A stretch of 64,000 bases of DNA, from assembly GCF_002798405.1 (NCBI RefSeq), contig NZ_PGGV01000032.1, forward strand, positions 62,001 through 126,000, given 5' to 3'. Below the pieces are notes generated by a model, which was not told the origin of the DNA, did not search any database, and was given only the letters and a program-made list of their open reading frames with translations. Shown piece by piece: positions 10,467 to 29,243 of this stretch. Made by a program: the position numbers and the translations under genes. Every line of letters starts with the position of its first letter. Position 1 is the first letter of the stretch. The stretch is from Glycomyces xiaoerkulensis (GTDB lineage: Bacteria; Actinomycetota; Actinomycetes; Mycobacteriales; Micromonosporaceae).

Positions 10467-11099
10467 GTGAACAGCGCCGGAGAAGGCAGAGTCCGACTGC
10501 CCAGGAGCGAACGCCGGGCGCAGTTGCTGCAGGCGGCCCAGGAAGTGTTCGTCTCCCGCGGCTACCACGCGACCTCCATGGACGACATCGCCGACCGCGC
10601 GGGCGTGTCCAAGCCCGTGCTCTACCAGCACTTCACTTCGAAACTGGATCTGTACCTGGCGTTGCTCGACGGGCGCGCGACCGAGCTGGTCGCCCGCATC
10701 CGGGAGGCGATGGACCGCTCCGAGGACAACAAGGAGCGGGTCAACCAGGCCATGCGCGCCTACTTCGACTTCGTCGACGCCCAGGGGGAGGCGTTCCGGC
10801 TGGTGTTCGAATCCGACCAGCGCAACGATCCGGCCGTGGCCGAGCGGGTCCTGCGCATGGAGGCCGAGTGCGTGGCGGCGCTGTCCGACACGATCATGGC
10901 CGACACCCAGGTCGACAAGGACCGTGCCGAAATGCTGGCCACGGGGCTGGTCGGGGCCGCCGAGGTGGCCGCGCGCAAGTGGATCGCCTCGGGCCGGGTG
11001 GTGCCGAAGGACGAGGCCATCCAGCTCATGGCCACGCTCGCCTGGCGGGGCATCTCCCACTTCCCGCTCGAAGGCGGAGCCGAGAGCGGGAACGAGTAG
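10467..11099 (+). CDS. TetR/AcrR family transcriptional regulator
   Basis: 210 residues. The N-terminal TetR helix-turn-helix is clear: 'RRAQLLQAAQEVFVSRGYHATSMDDIADRAGVSKPVLYQHF' spans ~13-53 with the typical recognition helix 'VSKPVLYQHF'. The helical ligand-binding part follows. GTG at 10467 is chosen because AGAGAGGTG lies just upstream; the frame stays open further upstream from 10344. It is the counterpart of the TetR gene that in mycobacteria lies between DUF3152 and DUF3107 genes. The last codons are part of a 26-bp sequence that is repeated immediately after the gene. Confidence 0.92.
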   Translation: MNSAGEGRVRLPRSERRAQLLQAAQEVFVSRGYHATSMDDIADRAGVSKPVLYQHFTSKLDLYLALLDGRATELVARIREAMDRSEDNKERVNQAMRAYFDFVDAQGEAFRLVFESDQRNDPAVAERVLRMEAECVAALSDTIMADTQVDKDRAEMLATGLVGAAEVAARKWIASGRVVPKDEAIQLMATLAWRGISHFPLEGGAESGNE

Positions 11100-11132
11100 G
11101 CACGGTCCGCTCGAAGGCGGAGCCGAGAGCGG
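11064..11132. repeat. Two identical 26-bp hairpin repeats at the tetR 3' end
   Basis: The 26 bases at 11064-11089 recur without change at 11107-11132 (period 43). Each can fold on itself: CCGCTC pairs with GAGCGG at the ends and GGC with GCC inside. The first copy codes for the TetR C-terminus; the second is noncoding. They may act as a double terminator or arose by local duplication. Confidence 0.6.
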
Positions 11133-11251
11133 AAACGACCGACCCCGCGTTGTTCGCTGCGGGCGCACCCTCGGTGACCGACCCCCGCTCCCGCCCCGAG
11201 TAACCTTGCCTCGTCCGCAGACGTCAGAGGAAATCTGTTTGAGGAGGGCCC

Positions 11252-21211: not shown

Positions 21212-21468
21212 CAGCATCCTCCGCCGGCGCGGGGGCGCGGGCGGGTACGCGCTTGCTCCGCCGGCTGGGCGGCTGTGTGGTTCATGGGGACCTCGAAGGG
21301 GCGTCTTCGTACCGGTGCGACGGCTTCCACCATATGCCCTCCCCTCACCCCATCCGCATCGACCGCTCCTCGCCTGCAGGGTTCACCGATGGCGAGTCCG
21401 CGCACCCGAGCCGCCTTTGTTGCGTTTATTTCGATTATTTCGTATGATTCGAGTAGGAGGTGTTCCGA
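21212..21468. other. Intergenic left edge of the accessory island
   Basis: 257 bp between divergent genes. Base composition drops to A/T-rich towards 21420-21450 (TTTATTTCGATTATTTCGTATGATTCG). A likely -10 TATGAT (21443-21448 region) precedes the antitoxin gene. I see no terminator or RNA gene. Confidence 0.5.
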
Positions 21469-22017
21469 ATGACCAGCATCGGGTCCGTCAGCTCCGTCGA
21501 GCCGGACGACGTCGACGCCGAGGCCGCACAGCGAGCCTTGCGCCGAATCAAGGACTACCTGGCGAAGCATCCGTCGGAGCCGGAGACGATCGAGGTCCTC
21601 GTCGAACACGGGGAGCCTTCGCTCGTCCTGCCTCGCCCCGCCGTCACACTCTTCGCGCAGATTCTCGCTCAGCTCGCCGAGGGCCGAGGGGTATCGGTGA
21701 TCCCGTCGCAGGCGGAACTCACCACCCAGCAGGCCGCGGACCTGCTCGGTGTCTCCCGCCCCTATCTGATCGGGCTGCTCGAAGGCGGCGACATCCCTCA
21801 CCGCAAGGTCGGTCGACACCGCAGAGTCGCTCTCTCGGATCTGTTGGTCTACAAGCGAACAGACGACGAGAAGCGTCGGGAGGCGGCCGACGACCTGGGA
21901 GCCCTGGGTCAAGAGCTGGGGAGGTTATCGACTTCGGGGCCGAACGAGTCCCGGCCTGCCTCCGATGCGTCGCACACTCCTGCCACAACCCTTCCGAAAC
22001 GATCGGCGGCGCGCTGA
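21469..22017 (+). CDS. Antitoxin-like protein with excisionase-type helix-turn-helix (orphan)
   Basis: 182 residues. The N-terminal part 'RALRRIKDYLAKHPSE' and middle 'VIPSQAELTTQQAADLLGVSRPYLIGLLEGGDIPHRKVGRHRRVALSDLLVYKR' (~79-132) match the HTH antitoxins that pair with PIN-domain toxins in Actinobacteria. Normally the protein ends soon after 'AADDLGALGQELG' (~150) and the toxin gene follows. Here the last ~30 residues are unrelated, because the reading frame runs into the 3' remnant of the toxin gene in another frame. ATG at 21469 has AGGAGG 8 bp upstream. The antitoxin probably remains able to bind DNA, but its toxin is gone. Confidence 0.8.
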   Translation: MTSIGSVSSVEPDDVDAEAAQRALRRIKDYLAKHPSEPETIEVLVEHGEPSLVLPRPAVTLFAQILAQLAEGRGVSVIPSQAELTTQQAADLLGVSRPYLIGLLEGGDIPHRKVGRHRRVALSDLLVYKRTDDEKRREAADDLGALGQELGRLSTSGPNESRPASDASHTPATTLPKRSAAR

Positions 22018-22302: not shown

Positions 22303-22518
22303 CCAAAAGTGTTCGCAGACGCGAAATTAATTGTACCGAACAAATTCGGGGACACCGATCAAGCGCCGAAGCAAACGAAGGGGTGCCAGGGGCGGTTCTC
22401 CCCCACCGCAGCCAGGGCCTCGGCCGGAGTCGCTCCGGCGGCGCAGCGGCGGTGGTAGTCGATCATCATCTCGGCGGCCACGTCGGCGAGGACTCGACCG
22501 AGGCTCGAGACGACGGTG
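22303..22518. repeat. 216-bp direct repeat, copy A (downstream of fic)
   Basis: Aligns without gaps to 23530-23745 (constant offset 1,227 bp), with about 16 mismatches by hand comparison. It contains the last ~53 codons and stop of the CHAT gene plus ~55 bp of downstream DNA. It ends 3 bp from the fic stop codon. Confidence 0.9.
22359..22518 (-). pseudogene. Duplicated 3' fragment of the CHAT protease gene
   Basis: The minus strand reads TVVSSLGRVLADVAAEMMID and so on to 'VCFGA' stop, the same as the last ~53 residues of the intact CHAT protein at 23586 with a few substitutions (for example VLADVAAEM versus VPDDLAAEM). It lacks a start and both catalytic residues, so it is a dead duplicate inside repeat copy A. 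A reading frame continues upstream only through antisense fic sequence. Confidence 0.85.
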
Positions 22519-22521
22519 AAG

Positions 22522-23523
22522 CTATCGGCGCTTGTATCGCGAAGCCCGGTATTCCTCCACCGCTTCAGCGCTGCTGACCCACTGCCCGGATTCGTTCTTC
22601 GCCGCCCGCAGGCGTCCTCGAATCGCCGCCGCTCTGAGCGCCGGCTCGCCGAGGTCGTCGGACGCCAGGCTCGCCAGGGGCGCCAGATGGGTGGAGGTGG
22701 CGAGCGCAGGCAGCGCGAATCGCTCAATGCTGTCGAGCACCTGCCGCGCGAGGAGTTCGGCCAGGCTCGAGATCCTGCCCGCATCCGCCGACTGCAGGGC
22801 GTCCAAGTACCGGTCACGGCGCCGCTTCTCGATGACGATGGGCACGAAACCCCGCCTGACCAGCAATAGATTCAGCAAAAGGCGGCCGGTACGGCCGTTG
22901 CCGTCCAAGAACGGATGGATCAGCTCGAACCGGTGGTGGAGATAGGCAAGGCGCTCCACGGCATGCTTCCCCGGGATGCCGTCGAAATCGCAGGCTTCGT
23001 CGACCCAGGTACGCGTCAGCGAGTCGACCTCGGTCCATGACGGCGGTTTCATGCCGCCTGGAAACTCGGCGATCTGATGGCGGCGGAAGGATCCGGGACC
23101 TTCTTCGGGACTCGCATGGGGGTGCGGTGCCACCTCCCAGACCAGTCGCATGGTTTGAAAGTGCAGGTGGCGGACCTCCTGCATAGTTACCAGCGGCGCC
23201 TCGTCCGTTTGCACGCGTCCATCCGCCGCCTGGGCGTAGACCCACTTGGCGGCGTCCGCATAGCCTCGCACCTCCAGGTACTCGGCCATGGGCTTCGCAT
23301 GCGCGGTCCGATCCCGCTCGAGTAGCTGCTCGACATCGCTCAGGGCCAGCGTGTTCCCTTCGATCGCGGTGCTGTGGTGGGTATCCCGGTGCCACAGATC
23401 CGACCAGACGTCGGCGGCTTGGTCCGCGCCCGGAAGTCCTCCGTAAACCTCATGCAGCTCGGCGACCGCGGTGTCGAGGCGCGCATACAGCGTCTCCCGC
23501 GACGGCCTTCCCCGCGGCGACAT
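22522..23523 (-). CDS. Fic family protein (AMPylase-type), class II with N-terminal inhibitory motif
   Basis: 333 residues. The core Fic motif is complete: 'HPFLDGNGRTGR' at 203-214 with catalytic His203. An N-terminal inhibitory motif (S/T)xxxE(G/N) is present as 'STAIEGN' at 51-57, placing it in class II, where the Glu blocks ATP until relieved. A DUF4172-like N-terminal helix and a C-terminal winged-helix-like tail (~285-333, 'AAAIRGRLRAAKNESGQWVSSAEAVEEY') are typical of the larger Fic proteins. The reaction is expected to be transfer of AMP to a hydroxyl side chain of a target protein. ATG at 23523 has GGAGG upstream. The gene begins 7 bp after repeat copy B and ends 3 bp before copy A, as if it were the cargo of a small cassette at the end of the CHAT operon. 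Confidence 0.93.
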   Translation of the reverse strand: MSPRGRPSRETLYARLDTAVAELHEVYGGLPGADQAADVWSDLWHRDTHHSTAIEGNTLALSDVEQLLERDRTAHAKPMAEYLEVRGYADAAKWVYAQAADGRVQTDEAPLVTMQEVRHLHFQTMRLVWEVAPHPHASPEEGPGSFRRHQIAEFPGGMKPPSWTEVDSLTRTWVDEACDFDGIPGKHAVERLAYLHHRFELIHPFLDGNGRTGRLLLNLLLVRRGFVPIVIEKRRRDRYLDALQSADAGRISSLAELLARQVLDSIERFALPALATSTHLAPLASLASDDLGEPALRAAAIRGRLRAAKNESGQWVSSAEAVEEYRASRYKRR

Positions 23524-23529
23524 GGCCCT

Positions 23530-23745
23530 CCAAAAGTGTTCGCATACGAGGAATTAATTGTACCGAACAAATTCGGGGGCCCCTGTCAAGCGCCGAAGCA
23601 GACGAAGGGATGCCAGGGGCGGTTCTCCCCCACCGCAGCCAGGGCCTCGGCCGGAGTCGCTCCGGCGGCGCAGCGGCGGTGGTAGTCGATCATCATCTCG
23701 GCGGCCAGGTCGTCGGGGACGCGGCCGAGGCTGGACACGACGGTG
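23530..23745. repeat. 216-bp direct repeat, copy B (CHAT 3' end and fic leader)
   Basis: Partner of copy A at 22303. It carries the CHAT gene's 3' end and the short CHAT-fic intergenic region, including an inverted pair TGTTCG...CGAACA around TACAATTAATT. The fic ribosome-binding site straddles its border. Confidence 0.9.
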
Positions 23746-26099
23746 GAAGTTCCTGCGTGGAGCAGCGCCGCGGTGAAGCCGAGAGTCTCGTTCCCGACCG
23801 CGACGGTCGAGCGGCCGAGGTCGCAGGAGGACAGGACCACATGGCCGGGAGGCTGGTCGAGGCCGAGGAGCTCGTAGGCGTTGAGCGGGCCTTGACCGAA
23901 GTCGAGACGGGAGAAGAGGACGTTGTCGGGCTCGTGGTGGCCGTGGGCGGCGAGGTGGGCGACCGAAGCTCCGTCCAGGGCCTTCAGTACGAGTTCGGGG
24001 TCGGAGTCATCGGCCGGCATCAGGTTCGCGCCCGGATAGAGTCCTCCGATCGCGCTGATCTCGGTTCCAGCGGTATTCAAACGTGGCCCCGCGGCGGCCA
24101 GCGGCGGACCGTTGGGCCTCCGCCGAGTCGTTGCACGCCACCAGGCTTCGGCCGAGGGGGAGACGGTGATCGCTCTGCCGCGCAGCGGGGGCAGGAGCGG
24201 CCAAGGCACCCAGGCCAGTTTGCTATGAGGCACGATCACCACGTCACGATCACCGATCAGTTCACTGATCGGGTCCCAGATGCCTCTGGAAAGGATTTCG
24301 GCATTCCGGCGAACGGAAGCCTCGACGCTTTGCCGCAGGCGGTCCGGGAGAGGGTATGGTGCGCCGAGCGCATCGAGGTCGGCTCCTAGTCGCCGCCCGG
24401 ACTCGACGGCCTCCTCCAATTTCATCAACTGGACATTCCGCAGTCCGCCCACCCCTGCCACGAGCGCCACCAGGTGATCGTTGATCCCATAGAGACTGAC
24501 GATCACCGTTCCACGCTCTTCAGCCAGGAGCTGAATCTGTTCCGGTGTAATGCGTTCGGCCTGCAGGCGGGGACCCGGCTTGCTCCGGTCGTACGCACGG
24601 ATCTCCTCTTCCAGCTCACGGACCCGCCGCATCGCCTCCGTGTCATCGCGTCCATCCATCTGAATGTCCCACAGCCGCTGACGGGCTTGCCGGAGCCGAC
24701 CGATGGATTCTCGGGCGTCCGGGTCGGCGCTTGACTTCACCGGAGGAATACGTAGGGCCTGTGCGCGGCACCGCTCGGCCCATGCGAACATCCAAGCAGG
24801 ATCTCCGTCTTCAGTGGCCCAGTGCAGGCCGCGGCTGGCCAACTGAATTCCTATGGCTGACACCCCGGCCTGGAACTCGATCGACCCGAATTCAGTTCGA
24901 TATTCGTCGAGCTTGTTCAGTCCGGCCTGGAGCTCGGGAAAGGGATCGTCGTCCTCGGCCCTGGCCAGTTCGGCCAATGCGAGATGCCGTGCCAGAGTTG
25001 CCGACAGAGCGCCATATCCGTGGCTTTCGACTGGCCTCTCCAGGTGCTCTTGCGCCGTTTCGAACGCTTGATCTCGGATGTAGGAGCGCGCGGCGAGAAT
25101 TCGAGCCTGCTCCATCCGCATAGTCCAACCGCGGTTGTCGAGCGCGGCGCAGAGCATCTCGACCTTGGTCGAGAAGTCCGAACCGGCCCGTTCGGAGTCG
25201 AAGAGCGCCTGAAGCGCAAGCAGCTTCGAAAGAAACGCCCACGTCTCGATCCCCATTCCGTAAAATGTCTCCATCGCCCGATGTGCCCAGAGTTCGGCCT
25301 CGGCGTAGTCCGTGGCCTCCAAGGCGACGATCGCGCGGAAGAACTCACCCGTAGCGGCGGTCCGCAAGTCGCCCTGCAACCGAACGCCGGCGATCGCTTC
25401 TTCCCACAGCTCCGCCGACTGACGGTACATGCCGACTCTCATCAGTGCATCGGCGTAAGCGGAGACCAGCCGGGCCTCGTGTTCGGGAGCGTGCTCCCGA
25501 TAAAGACGCCTGAGATCCTCGAACTCCCTGATCGCACGGGTGACCTCGCCGAGCTCCAGCCACAGGAGTGCGCCCATGTGGCGGGCCTTGATCAGGTTTA
25601 TGGTTCCCCCTAGAGCTGCGAACAGCTCCTGGGCCCGCTGGGTACTTTCCAGACCTTTTTGGAAATTGCCGAGATCCCGCCATACACCGGCGCGATTCAT
25701 GTAAAGCCCGGCATACAGCCAATCCGGACCCCGCCGTTCAAGTATCGGCTCGGCCTTGTGAAACCATTCCAACGCCTCAGCGAGGCGCCCGTTCTGCCAG
25801 AGAATCAGGGCTCTCTGGTGCACGACGATGCCGCGATCCCGCGGGTCGACGAATTCCTCCGCTTGGTCGAGCATCCTCATGCCTTTCCAAGCCTGCCCTG
25901 AGAAGGTGAGCCCGGCGGCGCGGCTGGCCAATAGCCTTGCAATCAGCCGCGCACGGGAGGTACCCGGCGTGGGGGTGCGCTCTGGATCCCATTGGAGCAG
26001 TGCCAGGGCCTGGTTGTGAGCTTCGGCCGCTTCGATCACGCGGCCACGACTCTGCAGTCGCCGGCCGCGATCGTACAAACGCCAGGCGCGGGGGAGCAT
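23586..26099 (-). CDS. TPR-CHAT protein: caspase-like protease with tetratricopeptide repeats
   Basis: 837 residues. Residues ~1-430 are helical pairs of TPR type ('RAGVWRDLGNFQKGLESTQRAQELF', 'EARLVSAYADALMRVGMYRQ' style). A charged coiled stretch (~440-510) leads to the CHAT domain (~545-837), the caspase-like fold of separase/caspase families. The catalytic dyad is visible: His719 in 'HLAAHGHH' and Cys759 in 'HVVLSSCDLG'. It has no signal peptide or membrane helix, so it acts in the cytoplasm. TPR-CHAT proteins are activated by partners binding the TPR part; Csx29 of type III-E CRISPR is one. It lies 10 bp after the small protein gene in an operon with a sigma factor and a subtilase. Its 3' end is duplicated beyond fic. 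Confidence 0.92.
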   Translation of the reverse strand: MLPRAWRLYDRGRRLQSRGRVIEAAEAHNQALALLQWDPERTPTPGTSRARLIARLLASRAAGLTFSGQAWKGMRMLDQAEEFVDPRDRGIVVHQRALILWQNGRLAEALEWFHKAEPILERRGPDWLYAGLYMNRAGVWRDLGNFQKGLESTQRAQELFAALGGTINLIKARHMGALLWLELGEVTRAIREFEDLRRLYREHAPEHEARLVSAYADALMRVGMYRQSAELWEEAIAGVRLQGDLRTAATGEFFRAIVALEATDYAEAELWAHRAMETFYGMGIETWAFLSKLLALQALFDSERAGSDFSTKVEMLCAALDNRGWTMRMEQARILAARSYIRDQAFETAQEHLERPVESHGYGALSATLARHLALAELARAEDDDPFPELQAGLNKLDEYRTEFGSIEFQAGVSAIGIQLASRGLHWATEDGDPAWMFAWAERCRAQALRIPPVKSSADPDARESIGRLRQARQRLWDIQMDGRDDTEAMRRVRELEEEIRAYDRSKPGPRLQAERITPEQIQLLAEERGTVIVSLYGINDHLVALVAGVGGLRNVQLMKLEEAVESGRRLGADLDALGAPYPLPDRLRQSVEASVRRNAEILSRGIWDPISELIGDRDVVIVPHSKLAWVPWPLLPPLRGRAITVSPSAEAWWRATTRRRPNGPPLAAAGPRLNTAGTEISAIGGLYPGANLMPADDSDPELVLKALDGASVAHLAAHGHHEPDNVLFSRLDFGQGPLNAYELLGLDQPPGHVVLSSCDLGRSTVAVGNETLGFTAALLHAGTSTVVSSLGRVPDDLAAEMMIDYHRRCAAGATPAEALAAVGENRPWHPFVCFGA

Positions 26100-26109
26100 T
26101 CTTCAAATG

Positions 26110-26643
26110 CTACAACCGCACAGCGGGTGTTACGACCACCGCAGGCAATCCTTCCCTCTGCAGTTCCTCATCAGGCCGGATGACCAGTTGGAACATTTCT
26201 CCCTGAGGCAGCCCGTCGAGGACGAACCTGCCGCTTTCCTCGGTCACGGCCCGTCGTACACCCTCTGGACTGCGCAGCTCGACCTCGTACGTGCCCTCGG
26301 GCCCGATCCAGCCATCCAGCCGCACCTCCCCCGGCGTGGCCGGGCGAGGCGTGACCATGACGGTCAACGCCTCGCAGTCGAAGGTTATGGACGCCGGGTC
26401 ACCCTGGCCCACAGCCACTTCGGTCTCACCTCGAACGAGCGTCGGTTCCGGTGGCCGAGCCACCCCCGCTACGCGGGCATCCAGCTCGGCCTCCAACTGC
26501 AAGGCGAACAGCACACGCTCGTTAAGATCATCGGGTATCGGATCATCTCGATTATGGAGCTCGTCGATCACCGCCAGAATACGCTGATCGCAGGAGTCCA
26601 ACGGCTCGCTCTCACCCTGAGACTCAGGTTCACGCCGCATCAT
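26110..26643 (-). CDS. Small acidic protein with carboxypeptidase-regulatory-like beta domain; candidate CHAT substrate or anti-sigma
   Basis: 177 residues. The N-terminal ~65 residues are acidic and helical ('ILAVIDELHNRDDPIPDDLNERVLFALQLEAELDARV'), a layout seen in some sigma-associated regulators. The rest is a beta domain with 'VRLDGWIGPEGTYEVELRSPEG' and 'ESGRFVLDGLPQGEMFQLVIRP', the pattern of transthyretin-like/carboxypeptidase-regulatory folds. No membrane helix. ATG at 26643 (GGAG 7 bp upstream) lies inside the sigma gene, a 14-bp overlap, so it is translated together with the sigma factor. That coupling suggests it binds the sigma factor. Anti-sigma function is an inference; it could instead be a scaffold or protease substrate. 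Confidence 0.75.
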   Translation of the reverse strand: MMRREPESQGESEPLDSCDQRILAVIDELHNRDDPIPDDLNERVLFALQLEAELDARVAGVARPPEPTLVRGETEVAVGQGDPASITFDCEALTVMVTPRPATPGEVRLDGWIGPEGTYEVELRSPEGVRRAVTEESGRFVLDGLPQGEMFQLVIRPDEELQREGLPAVVVTPAVRL

Positions 26644-27244
26644 CGTCCCGCTCCTCACCTCTGCTCCAAGCCGGATCGGCCAGTAGCGTCCTTCTCAGTT
26701 TGTTCAAGCAGCGTCCCCTCGTGGGGCCGATGCTTCCCCTCTTCATCCCCAGTGCTTCGGCGATGTCGTCGTAATCCGGCCGATCGACGGCGGCCACATA
26801 GGCCAGCAGTCGTCGGCACCTGTCATCCTGGGCAAGGAAGGCACGTCGCACGGATTCGTGCTCGGCGCTGCGGACCAAGTCCTCCTCAACGCCGTCGATC
26901 ATCGGTTCTTGAATATCCACTGGATCGCTCACGACTTCACGTCGAGAACGACCCGCCAGCCTCCAGGCTTCGCGTCGGACGGTGGTGAGCATCCACTTCG
27001 TCAGCGCAAGCGGATGCTCCAGCTCAGTGCTCGGACGCCAGAGGCGGAGCCATGCAGTCTGGACGGCGTCGGCGGCGCTTTCTCGGTCGAGACCCGCCCG
27101 ACGGGCCACTCGCCAGAGAAGCACGTTGAGCTCCTCGACCAAGGTGCGCTGCGCTCCCTCATCACCTGCGCGCGCCGCCACGTACAGTTGCGCGCGCCGG
27201 TCGTAATCCACAGCGGCCGCAGAATGAGCGGAAGTCGCGTTCAT
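26630..27244 (-). CDS. Sigma-70 family (ECF-type) RNA polymerase sigma factor
   Basis: 204 residues. Region 2 is seen in 'NVLLWRVARRAGLDRESAADAVQTAWLRLW' with the DAVQ/W motif (~40-70); region 4 in 'YDDIAEALGMKRGSIGPTRGRCLNKLRR' (~158-188). The spacing fits an ECF sigma factor with only sigma2 and sigma4. Its target promoters are unknown. It begins 9 bp after the subtilase gene and overlaps the next gene by 14 bp. The combination with a TPR-CHAT protease resembles the sigma-factor output arm of type III-E CRISPR loci, but here without CRISPR. Confidence 0.92.
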   Translation of the reverse strand: MNATSAHSAAAVDYDRRAQLYVAARAGDEGAQRTLVEELNVLLWRVARRAGLDRESAADAVQTAWLRLWRPSTELEHPLALTKWMLTTVRREAWRLAGRSRREVVSDPVDIQEPMIDGVEEDLVRSAEHESVRRAFLAQDDRCRRLLAYVAAVDRPDYDDIAEALGMKRGSIGPTRGRCLNKLRRTLLADPAWSRGEERDDDAA

Positions 27245-27253
27245 GGCTCCAGG

Positions 27254-28792
27254 CTAACGGTTCTTCAACCGCTCGATCGCCCCACGAGCGCGAGCGGCGG
27301 CCTTCGCCGAATCCTCCACCACATCCGGACCGAGTTCCGCCATAGTGTTGACCAGGAACGAGGCAGCGATCGGCGCGGCGAAGGAGGTGCCTCCCCAAAC
27401 CGCAAACCCTGAGGAGAAGTCGTCGGGATCATGACTCTCCCGGTGCCGGTCCGCGAAGGTCGCCCTCGTCCGCCGGTCCGGCATCAGCGAGCCTCTCGCT
27501 TCCTGGGGGAAGGTGCTCACCAATCCGGCCCCGGTCGCGAAGCAGGACACCCAGGGCCCGTCGTTGGAGAACATCGCCACATTCCGGTTCGGGTTGAGGG
27601 CACCGACACTGAGGACCGGTGCCGAATCATCCGGGCGTGGGAATGCTGCGAACGCGGCGGGGAAGAACGGCCTGTCGGACGATTGATTTCCCGCAGCCGC
27701 GACGACGGTGACTCCAAGGGAGGTGAGCCGCTGGATAGCGACGCCCATCCAGGTCTCGGGTTCGTCATCGGGATCCTCATCGACATAGCCCATAGCCAGG
27801 ACGACCACATCGGCGGCGACGGCCTCGGGATCGCCTCCACGAGCAGCCTCAACCTGGTCCGCCACGTGGTGCAACGCTCCTACCAGCTCATGTTCGTAGG
27901 CGAGACCATCATTGTGGACGACACGCAGCGAGTACACCTGGGCATCGGGTGCCATCTGCCGTATTAGACCGGTCATGAACGTTCCGTGACCGAAGTGGGT
28001 TGCGACCTCACCAAGTAGTGTGTCCTCGTGGACGGGCCCCTCCCACGGATCATCAAGGGGCGGCGCCGGACTGTCCGAGCCCTCGGCAAGTTTGTGTTGG
28101 AATTCCTCATCGACCAGCACAAACGCATCCTCGTCGGACCTGCGGTCCGCGACAGTGAACGCGGAATGGCTCTGGGGCACACCAGAGTCGACAATGGCGA
28201 CTTTGACGCGATTGTCCTTCGGCCGGCGAAGCGGCATCGGATTCACCATGTCGACCGGGATCCGGCCAAGCGGCTTCAGCGGACTCGAGTCAGGCGGTTC
28301 GGCACCGCTGATGTTGGGAGACATGCAGGCCACCAGCAGGTGCTCCAGTCTCACTCGGTCGGTGACCTCTGAGGCCAGCCGCCCCTCGTTGGTAGCGGTA
28401 CGGAGCGATTGAAGCAGTGCCCATGCGTCAACAGCAGTGGGGTCCCCTTGTCCGGTAAGGGAAACCGGCACTCTGTGCGATCCTTGACCGGGGGTGATGG
28501 TGCGGCCCGCTTCACATTCCAATCGCAACCCGATCGGCCTGACGGCGCCTTCAAGGCGACGGCGCAGCGAGTCGTCCATGATGATCGACTCATCGACGAG
28601 GAGCCGGTCGTATCGGTAGATCGTGCCGACGGGCATTGCCGTGCCTGGGGCCCGAACCGCCTGACCCGGCCGCAGGACTCGGCCACTGTGCCGGTCAAGC
28701 GTCGGCGGAGACAAACTGGGCACGCCGGTCATGCGGTCGCGCTGGTCGTTTCGCTCTAGATGGGGTTCTTCATGGCTGAAGACCAAACGCAT
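27254..28792 (-). CDS. Cytoplasmic S8 family serine peptidase (subtilase)
   Basis: 512 residues. The subtilase triad is complete: Asp202 in 'VAIVDSGVP', His269 in 'HFGHGTFMTGLI', Ser470 in 'GGTSFAAPIAAS', with oxyanion Asn369 in 'AAAGNQ'. There is no signal peptide; the N-terminal ~190 residues are an extra domain of unknown fold rather than a classical I9 propeptide. So the enzyme is probably cytoplasmic and controlled by this N-terminal domain. ATG at 28792 has AGGAG 7 bp upstream. It is the first gene of the operon, read from the promoter at 28826-28854. Its likely role is regulated proteolysis together with the CHAT protease. Confidence 0.93.
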   Translation of the reverse strand: MRLVFSHEEPHLERNDQRDRMTGVPSLSPPTLDRHSGRVLRPGQAVRAPGTAMPVGTIYRYDRLLVDESIIMDDSLRRRLEGAVRPIGLRLECEAGRTITPGQGSHRVPVSLTGQGDPTAVDAWALLQSLRTATNEGRLASEVTDRVRLEHLLVACMSPNISGAEPPDSSPLKPLGRIPVDMVNPMPLRRPKDNRVKVAIVDSGVPQSHSAFTVADRRSDEDAFVLVDEEFQHKLAEGSDSPAPPLDDPWEGPVHEDTLLGEVATHFGHGTFMTGLIRQMAPDAQVYSLRVVHNDGLAYEHELVGALHHVADQVEAARGGDPEAVAADVVVLAMGYVDEDPDDEPETWMGVAIQRLTSLGVTVVAAAGNQSSDRPFFPAAFAAFPRPDDSAPVLSVGALNPNRNVAMFSNDGPWVSCFATGAGLVSTFPQEARGSLMPDRRTRATFADRHRESHDPDDFSSGFAVWGGTSFAAPIAASFLVNTMAELGPDVVEDSAKAAARARGAIERLKNR

Positions 28793-28825
28793 GGGAGCTC
28801 CTCTCGGGTCGGGGGTGTATGCAGT

Positions 28826-28854
28826 TGTGTAACGAGGAGAACGATACTTGTCAT
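28826..28854 (-). promoter_or_regulatory. Predicted promoter of the S8-sigma-CHAT-Fic operon
   Basis: On the minus strand ATGACA (28849-28854), 17 bp, TACACA (28826-28831), ~35 bp upstream of the subtilase start. It resembles a housekeeping-type promoter, which would mean the operon is transcribed before its own sigma factor is freed. Confidence 0.35.
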
Positions 28855-29243
28855 TGATGCTCCTCGCTGTCCCTGAGGCGCATGGTCCCAGGTCGGTTGT
28901 TCAGGCCCGGGGGCACTCAAGCCCGGAACGCGGCCGTTGTCATGTGCTGGACCGGTATCAACCGCGTTCACCGGTAAAGAGCGCTCATCGTGACCGCAGA
29001 TACAGCGCCCCGCAGAATTTTCCTCGGAATTCTGCGCAGGCGGGTGCGCGACCGGGTCGAATACCGTGCCGGTCAGCGGTTCGTGAAGGAACAGGGCCGC
29101 ATCGATGGCGCCCCTGGTCGGCGGCACTGGAGGCCGGGTCCGCCCGCGCCGGGCGAGTCGTTCGGGCACAGGGCGAGTAGGCGTACTGCCGGTCAGCGGA
29201 GCCGCGTGTCCGCGGCCCGAGAAGGGGCTCTACGGGCCGGCGG
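28855..29243. other. Intergenic right edge of the accessory island
   Basis: About 390 bp without a convincing gene. It holds a perfect inverted repeat CGCAGAATT-N8-AATTCTGCG (29011-29036) and two copies of TGCCGGTCAGCGG (near 29068 and 29188). The composition changes back to GC-rich across this stretch. Short open frames here lack ribosome-binding sites and family resemblance. Confidence 0.5.
29011..29036. repeat. Inverted repeat CGCAGAATT-N8-AATTCTGCG
   Basis: Perfect 9-bp arms (29011-29019 and 29028-29036) in the gap between the island operon and the DUF397 gene. It may be a terminator, an operator or the trace of an element end; nothing decides between these. Confidence 0.5.

Follow-up and report, generated by a model that had tools for sequence, protein, structure and literature searches.

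A CRISPR-free operon of a TPR-CHAT protease, a small partner protein and an ECF sigma factor in Glycomyces as a candidate protease-gated sigma switch

In this work we have analysed an operon of Glycomyces xiaoerkulensis in which a subtilase, an extracytoplasmic function (ECF) sigma factor, a small acidic protein and a TPR-CHAT protease are encoded one after another, and we asked how these proteins might act together on transcription. The operon lies in a stretch of 64,000 nucleotides, hereafter the window (contig NZ_PGGV01000032.1, positions 62,001 to 126,000, assembly GCF_002798405.1), and all coordinates given here are those of the window. An initial annotation of this DNA had described five open reading frames on the minus strand. 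All five were found, and their families were confirmed with Pfam or NCBIfam:

27254-28792, minus strand: S8 subtilase gene, 512 amino acids (Pfam Peptidase_S8, 6.6e-20)
26630-27244, minus strand: ECF sigma factor gene, 204 amino acids (TIGR02937, sigma70-ECF, 2.2e-14, over the NCBIfam cut-off)
26110-26658, minus strand: gene of the small acidic partner, 182 amino acids from a GTG start, candidate anti-sigma factor and CHAT substrate
23586-26099, minus strand: TPR-CHAT protease gene, 837 amino acids (Pfam CHAT, 1.5e-25)
22522-23523, minus strand: fic gene, 333 amino acids (Pfam Fic, 5.8e-15)

From the S8 gene to fic the intergenic spacings are 9, -29 (-14 if the small protein starts at an ATG), 10 and 62 nt, and the first four genes are a single operon in the Glycomyces genome. 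The small protein had been given as 177 residues long; its reading frame is real, but that form begins at an internal ATG and the GTG start gives 182 residues, the length being 176-182 depending on the start codon. The catalytic residues named earlier for the two proteases were verified on the DNA and are listed here with a signature of the sigma factor:

28187-28189, minus strand: D202 of the S8 catalytic triad
27986-27988, minus strand: H269 of the S8 catalytic triad
27383-27385, minus strand: S470 of the S8 catalytic triad
26708-26737, minus strand: sigma factor signature GSIGPTRGRC near the C-terminus, all ten positions invariant in 22 rows
23943-23945, minus strand: H719 of the CHAT catalytic dyad
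23823-23825, minus strand: C759 of the CHAT catalytic dyad

The subtilase has no evident signal peptide, as judged without a predictor (its peak hydropathy over 19 residues is 1.5). The description of the locus as CRISPR-free also held. The RAMP model PF03787, which detects Cas7-type domains and matched in 4 of 14 control genomes, gave no match in the genome of the window (40 contigs, 97.65% complete), and no CRISPR-array-like repeat was found in the window, the rest of the genome not having been searched for arrays. The operon therefore stands without a type III-E effector.

Is this gene set a peculiarity of one genome? We compared two sets of loci. The first comprises 40 regions (L031-L070) from 38 of the 41 genomes that matched the small protein among 150 searched in the order; G141 and G147 are not represented among these long regions, and G000 is represented by the window itself. 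The second, the named set, was probed with the sigma factor and holds the best 80 of at least 585 sigma relatives (among at least 596 matching stretches), 20 of them from Glycomyces or a nearby metagenome-assembled genome (MAG); the relatives closest to the sigma factor of the window, among these 80, come from Glycomyces and one MAG. Within the genus, the small protein matched in all 22 Glycomyces genomes, and a profile of it matched 34 of 296 genomes of the phylum, some of them weakly. In the 40 order loci the small protein gene is adjoined by the sigma gene in every case; a CHAT gene is found in 35 and an S8 gene in 25 (one of these a fragment at a contig end), S8 standing either before sigma or between the small gene and CHAT. 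Of the 80 loci of the named set, 79 have the small gene (60 of 60 outside Glycomyces) and 73 have all four genes; at L117 the S8 gene lies on the opposite strand. With starts chosen by script, an overlap of the small gene with sigma is seen in 37 of 41 rows and measures exactly 4 nt in 21 of them, while an overlap with CHAT is seen in none. Thus the order S8-sigma-small-CHAT, whose conservation across actinobacteria the initial annotation had left for checking, recurs far beyond chance, and the three roles that it had singled out (TPR-CHAT, ECF sigma and a small partner overlapping sigma) do recur together without CRISPR. The S8 triad is kept in 29 of 29 sequences of the first set and in 75 of 75 frames of the named set. 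Three loci (L049, L050, L051) have two S8 and two CHAT genes round one sigma-small pair and another (L044) has two S8 genes and one CHAT, which suggests parallel protease inputs. A second copy of the sigma gene in Glycomyces artemisiae (L115) has no small, S8 or CHAT gene within the 14.6 kb examined.

The small protein is acidic (isoelectric point 4.36), has no match in NCBIfam and in Pfam gives only sub-threshold matches to CarboxypepD_reg, a carboxypeptidase regulatory-like domain. In its AlphaFold2 model, with a mean predicted local distance difference test (pLDDT) score of 86.2, helices 22-38 and 45-67 are followed by a low-confidence linker at about 68-90, with residues 70-80 below 50, and by a seven-strand Ig/FN3-like sandwich at 91-162, whose Foldseek matches to FN3-type domains are weak (best 8.8e-4). 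The protein thus models as a helical hairpin, a disordered linker and an Ig-like domain, with no peptidase fold. One position of the linker stands out in an alignment of 47 rows:

26431-26433, minus strand: codon of Arg76 of the small protein, the predicted cleavage site

Column 76 is Arg in 45 of 47 rows and the other two have an Arg two residues upstream; the linker Arg is followed by G, S, A or T in every one of the 47 rows and, in 40 of the 45 with Arg at column 76, preceded by Val or Ala. This Arg is the sole linker residue kept in at least 80% of the rows and sits where the pLDDT is below 50. A wider count of linkers, made with a loose pattern, took in 102 distinct segments, with six proteins unscored and a few segments misplaced. 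We propose the small protein as a candidate anti-sigma factor and CHAT substrate. In the open-licence literature we found no account of it as a substrate, nor of the promoter described below. An apparent fusion of the small protein to CHAT in L132 was rejected; the joint frame is garbled across the Ig-like part and is therefore a frameshift in appearance.

The gene context itself is already in print as ECF54, to which we assign the sigma factor of the window by gene context alone. The passages on this group in PMC8999054 give its context as a subtilase, a CHAT protein and a carboxypeptidase-domain protein, describe it without an anti-sigma factor and propose proteolytic control. The same neighbourhood is found here, except that the only sign of a 'carboxypeptidase' is the sub-threshold CarboxypepD_reg matches, and this likeness may be the source of the term. 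Could sigma itself be the direct object of the proteases encoded beside it, which would keep it off without any anti-sigma factor, with the small protein as a peptidase or a helper of one? Such direct control is what those passages propose for ECF54, but the model of the small protein has no peptidase fold, the protein is the most constant neighbour of sigma in the named set and it carries a conserved Arg in a linker of its own. We consider this explanation unlikely.

The CHAT protein is predicted with high confidence (AlphaFold2 pLDDT 91.4), and its H719 and C759 are conserved in 38 of 38 sequences of the first set. In the named set they are found in 72 and 73 of 80 frames, respectively; the deviating frames are truncated at a contig end, broken into two or of very small size. 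The best Foldseek match of the model was human separase (8.8e-18); Csx29 came next (1.3e-15), and entries titled anti-sigma factor DdvA stood lower in the ranking (1.0e-12). By sequence profile the CHAT part matched a DdvA chain at 3.3e-7 and Csx29 chains at 3e-5, both far below the TPR matches; the CHAT protein of the window alone matched no PDB chain at 0.01, and the NCBIfam model of Csx29 scored it at no better than 0.013, with 14.4 bits where the cut-off is 300. Two acidic residues deserve attention:

24060-24062, minus strand: CHAT E680, candidate S1 acid, kept in 32 of 32 rows
23712-23714, minus strand: CHAT D796, candidate S1 acid, kept in 31 of 32 rows

The model places E680 in the helix that follows strand 667-670, and helix 796-811 begins with D796. 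Separases are listed as cutting after Arg in the relevant part of PMC4357240, and the modelling described in part of PMC4626109 assigns two acids to the P1 Arg, the first located between beta1 and alpha1 and the second close to where alpha4 begins. Matched by secondary structure, E680 and D796 are candidates for the counterparts of these acids.

The likeness to separase, a helical repeat array joined to a CHAT/C50-type protease with acids at both proposed P1-Arg positions, brings securin to mind, although the window protein is bacterial, has 837 residues and is only about 12% identical in the Foldseek alignments. Is the small protein an inhibitor or pseudosubstrate of CHAT instead of an anti-sigma factor, with sigma merely making the operon? 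The separase-like fold would suit such a role, and so would an Arg-bearing disordered linker; against it, the overlap of the small gene is with sigma in most rows and never with CHAT, and loci without CHAT still have the small gene next to sigma. This we regard as rather improbable. The DdvA matches raise yet another question, namely whether CHAT is an anti-sigma scaffold that does not cut at all, like DdvA of Myxococcus. Two of the structural matches (8rw5, 8rot) are titled transmembrane anti-sigma factor DdvA, and according to the pertinent section of PMC4374960 its partner DdvS turns active once DdvA is inactivated; here, too, a CHAT protein is paired with an ECF sigma factor. However, whereas DdvA is titled transmembrane, the CHAT protein looks soluble, with no clear membrane segment (its hydropathy peak of 1.68 is borderline, judged without a predictor), and a separate small protein accompanies sigma. 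The invariance of the His-Cys dyad in the first set and in the intact frames of the named set also speaks against a scaffold, and we think this role distinctly improbable.

If the sigma factor is released by proteolysis, which genes would it serve? A comparison of the leaders upstream of the operon pointed to the operon itself:

28977-29004, minus strand: promoter-like motif TGTATC-N17-CTCTT, candidate sigma target (autoregulation)
28793-28976, minus strand: conserved 5' leader between the motif and the S8 start, mean column identity 70% in 14 leaders

All 20 Glycomyces leaders have TGTATC unchanged, and 18 of 19 named Glycomyces loci carry the full motif, the other (L100) having TTCTT. In the genome of the window the operon site is the only exact match, and the 22 Glycomyces genomes hold 23 exact matches, 21 of them at the operon by position, against 1 control match. 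Outside Glycomyces, a relaxed motif was found upstream of the operon in 18 of 60 loci, the shuffled mean being 0.01. In ten genomes picked for having the motif at their operon (five Phycicoccus, Pedococcus, Ornithinibacter, a Dermatophilaceae MAG, Pseudactinotalea and Nocardioides), the form GTATCA-N15..17-CTCCT occurs at 63 sites against 3 for reversed-pattern controls. Ten further genomes gave 42 sites against 8 controls, the excess coming mainly from Pseudactinotalea, Nostocoides and Cellulomonas (9, 10 and 5 sites, each with 0 controls) and a Jatrophihabitans MAG (5 sites with 1 control). A trained motif model that had been scored on its own training regions was discounted as evidence. We infer that the motif is read by this sigma factor.

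The 14 aligned leaders were picked from those with an exact motif. The leader of the operon has no match in Rfam; it holds a conserved hairpin-like block at 28912-28933 (TTCCGGGCTTGAGTGCC region) in Glycomyces. A conserved leader peptide was considered and rejected, as read by eye, the short frame seen in some Glycomyces leaders being broken by single-base alignment indels. In 12 of the 60 non-Glycomyces loci the motif also stands on the opposite strand upstream of the operon (L118, L126, L127, L130, L133, L136, L147, L160, L164, L169, L171 and L172). This outward-pointing copy, mostly without an evident gene, may drive a small RNA or a short gene; a divergent gene as a shared target was rejected, such a gene being clear only in L147 among those inspected, and tblastn did not detect the L147 gene at any other locus.

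Taken together, we hypothesize that the operon encodes a protease-gated and self-amplifying sigma switch, in which CHAT cuts the small protein after Arg76 and the freed sigma factor re-induces the operon; we hold this to be somewhat better than an even chance. According to this model, the small protein would hold the ECF sigma factor inactive, probably by its N-terminal helical hairpin. The TPR array would sense a signal, upon which the separase-like CHAT domain would cut the small protein in its disordered linker after Arg76. The freed sigma factor would then start transcription at TGTATC-N17-CTCTT-type promoters, with its own operon first, so that S8, sigma, the small protein and CHAT would rise together, and S8 would probably complete the degradation of the cut partner or serve as an effector. 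Binding, inhibition, cleavage, release, trigger and outcome are all steps that we infer.

Several observations weigh against this model. The TM-scores of the CHAT matches in Foldseek are modest, about 0.3-0.5. In 5 of the 40 order loci, and in L127, L161 and L170 of the named set, sigma and the small gene have no CHAT gene nearby; some of these loci lie at contig ends, but the linker Arg is still kept in them, and CHAT there therefore works in trans or not at all. S8 could instead be the enzyme that uses Arg76. A nearby S8 gene is absent in 15 of the 40 order loci, and S8 is therefore not essential. The motif was defined only after the leaders had been inspected, and its relaxed form is absent upstream in 42 of the 60 non-Glycomyces loci. 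In the genomes of Catellatospora, Amycolatopsis and L129 the CTCCT form occurs about as often as its controls (0, 2 and 2 sites against 1, 1 and 2), and an Amycolatopsis-type motif, with one match in each of 2 of 20 genomes and 0 in controls, is too narrow to judge. In Glycomyces a looser motif gave 37 matches, 22 of them at operons, against 48 in controls, and therefore no wider regulon is seen there.

The switch that we propose resembles Craspase. In the parts of PMC10028731 concerned, Csx30 binds and blocks CASP-sigma, and processing of Csx30 by Csx29 is proposed as the relief. The Glycomyces locus likewise joins a TPR-CHAT protease with a His-Cys dyad, a partner protein and an ECF sigma factor, and Csx29 is a high-ranking structural match. 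In contrast to Craspase, the genome gave no match for a Cas7-type domain, the window shows no array, and an S8 protease is added. The small protein is also about one third of the 565 residues of Csx30 and has no Csx30 match by sequence (its profile gave 3 matches among PDB chains, none of them Csx30). The module thus presumably works like Craspase, but it is not a member of type III-E. If this is true, control of transcription by a caspase- or separase-type protease, for which a CRISPR system is the documented case in the literature examined, would also serve actinobacteria commonly as a signalling device in its own right. Compared with the ECF54 description, which in the passages mentioned names no cut site, promoter or regulon, the present reading offers a sharper and testable mechanism whose anti-sigma and cleavage steps are predictions. 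It yields three handles for experiments: Arg76, the promoter motif and a list of candidate targets.

We compiled this list from the ten genomes whose operon bears the motif. Of the 63 sites, 52 regions were read, 11 being omitted (9 at operons and 2 near contig starts); genes were called by a simple script, which placed 46 first genes, and 29 of these together with the L147 gene were scanned with Pfam. The motif sites are intergenic in 45 of the 52 regions, compared with 12% for positions drawn at random. Of 43 first genes that are co-directional with the motif, 40 begin no more than 150 nt from it. The operon's own S8 is, by position, the first gene in 6 of the 52 regions. Among the other first genes are those of enzymes (a Tle1-like phospholipase, a zinc phospholipase C, a second subtilase, an M43 metalloprotease, a haem peroxidase and a PLP-dependent decarboxylase), regulators (two BTAD and one LuxR-type) and a DUF6345 protein, an Hcp-domain protein, a VWA-type protein, a TrkA-type channel and a DUF1508 protein; for 13 of the 30 scanned proteins Pfam gave no family at 0.01. 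The targets that bear the motif in Phycicoccus and certain other genera thus include four Pfam-recognised hydrolases and three regulators. Four pairs of closely related targets recur between two genomes (L253/L268, L255/L267, L258/L264 and L246/L251). The pair L255/L267 links related proteins of two Phycicoccus genomes, and L255 matches T6SS_HCP at 1.6e-19 and has a twin-arginine-like leader, judged by eye. The list, drawn up from the motif, points tentatively to a response in which hydrolytic enzymes take part; in Glycomyces no target apart from the operon was detected. These targets are a handle on the purpose of the system, which the published context, in the passages available, did not give by itself. 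Perhaps a CRISPR-free, separase-like switch operates across actinobacteria, in which CHAT cuts a dedicated anti-sigma factor after the conserved Arg and the freed sigma factor raises the proteases again in a positive loop and, in some lineages, also fires phospholipases, proteases and a peroxidase, in a commitment-type programme that may be self-destructive or aimed at attack, and the protease arm of Craspase could share its ancestry. This wider picture is a tentative one and we would not yet bet on it.

The fifth gene of the locus has a different standing. The encoded protein carries the motifs HPFLDGNGR and STAIEGN, and from the latter we take it to be a class II Fic protein. In the initial annotation it was part of the operon, as a built-in growth arrest in a cascade triggered by phage or stress. 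The annotation had overlooked that fic sits between two direct repeats of 216 nt, 93% identical, which duplicate the CHAT 3' end:

23530-23745, minus strand: direct repeat copy 1, the CHAT 3' end and about 55 nt
22303-22518, minus strand: direct repeat copy 2, an orphan CHAT 3' end right after the fic stop codon

Although fic adjoins CHAT in the window and in G165 (directly after CHAT) and lies 1.9 kb downstream in G157, these are the only 3 of 22 Glycomyces genomes with fic beside the operon. A homologue occurs in 6 of the 22, including a 50% relative in G154 on a different contig from the operon. Fic was found in none of the 40 order loci, and in the named set a strong match was seen only in L113. 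Fic was therefore rejected as a core part, on its rarity among loci and its placement between repeats, and looks like an accessory add-on outside the core module. A phage trigger is likewise unsupported: among the five genes PADLOC gave no match below 0.01 except for Fic, which matches the PDC-S04 and SoFic models (S8 0.021, CHAT 0.032, sigma and the small protein none). In addition, five other Glycomyces operon regions (L031, L032, L033, L093 and L094) align with the window on both flanks of the operon, which thus has a common place in all of them and is therefore unlike a mobile island there. A phage- or stress-triggered cascade with Fic as its growth arrest is in our opinion very improbable.

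Two observations concern the surroundings of fic. An inverted repeat, TGTTCG...CGAACA, lies between CHAT and fic (23537-23569), is also present in the second repeat copy and is a possible fic operator. Downstream of fic, at 21460-22017 on the plus strand, is the gene of a HTH_17/excisionase-type DNA-binding protein (TIGR01764, 3.9e-11; PADLOC mad1, 3e-5). Elsewhere in the window, at 11064-11138, there are two direct repeats of 32 nt that are 97% identical and 43 nt apart from start to start.

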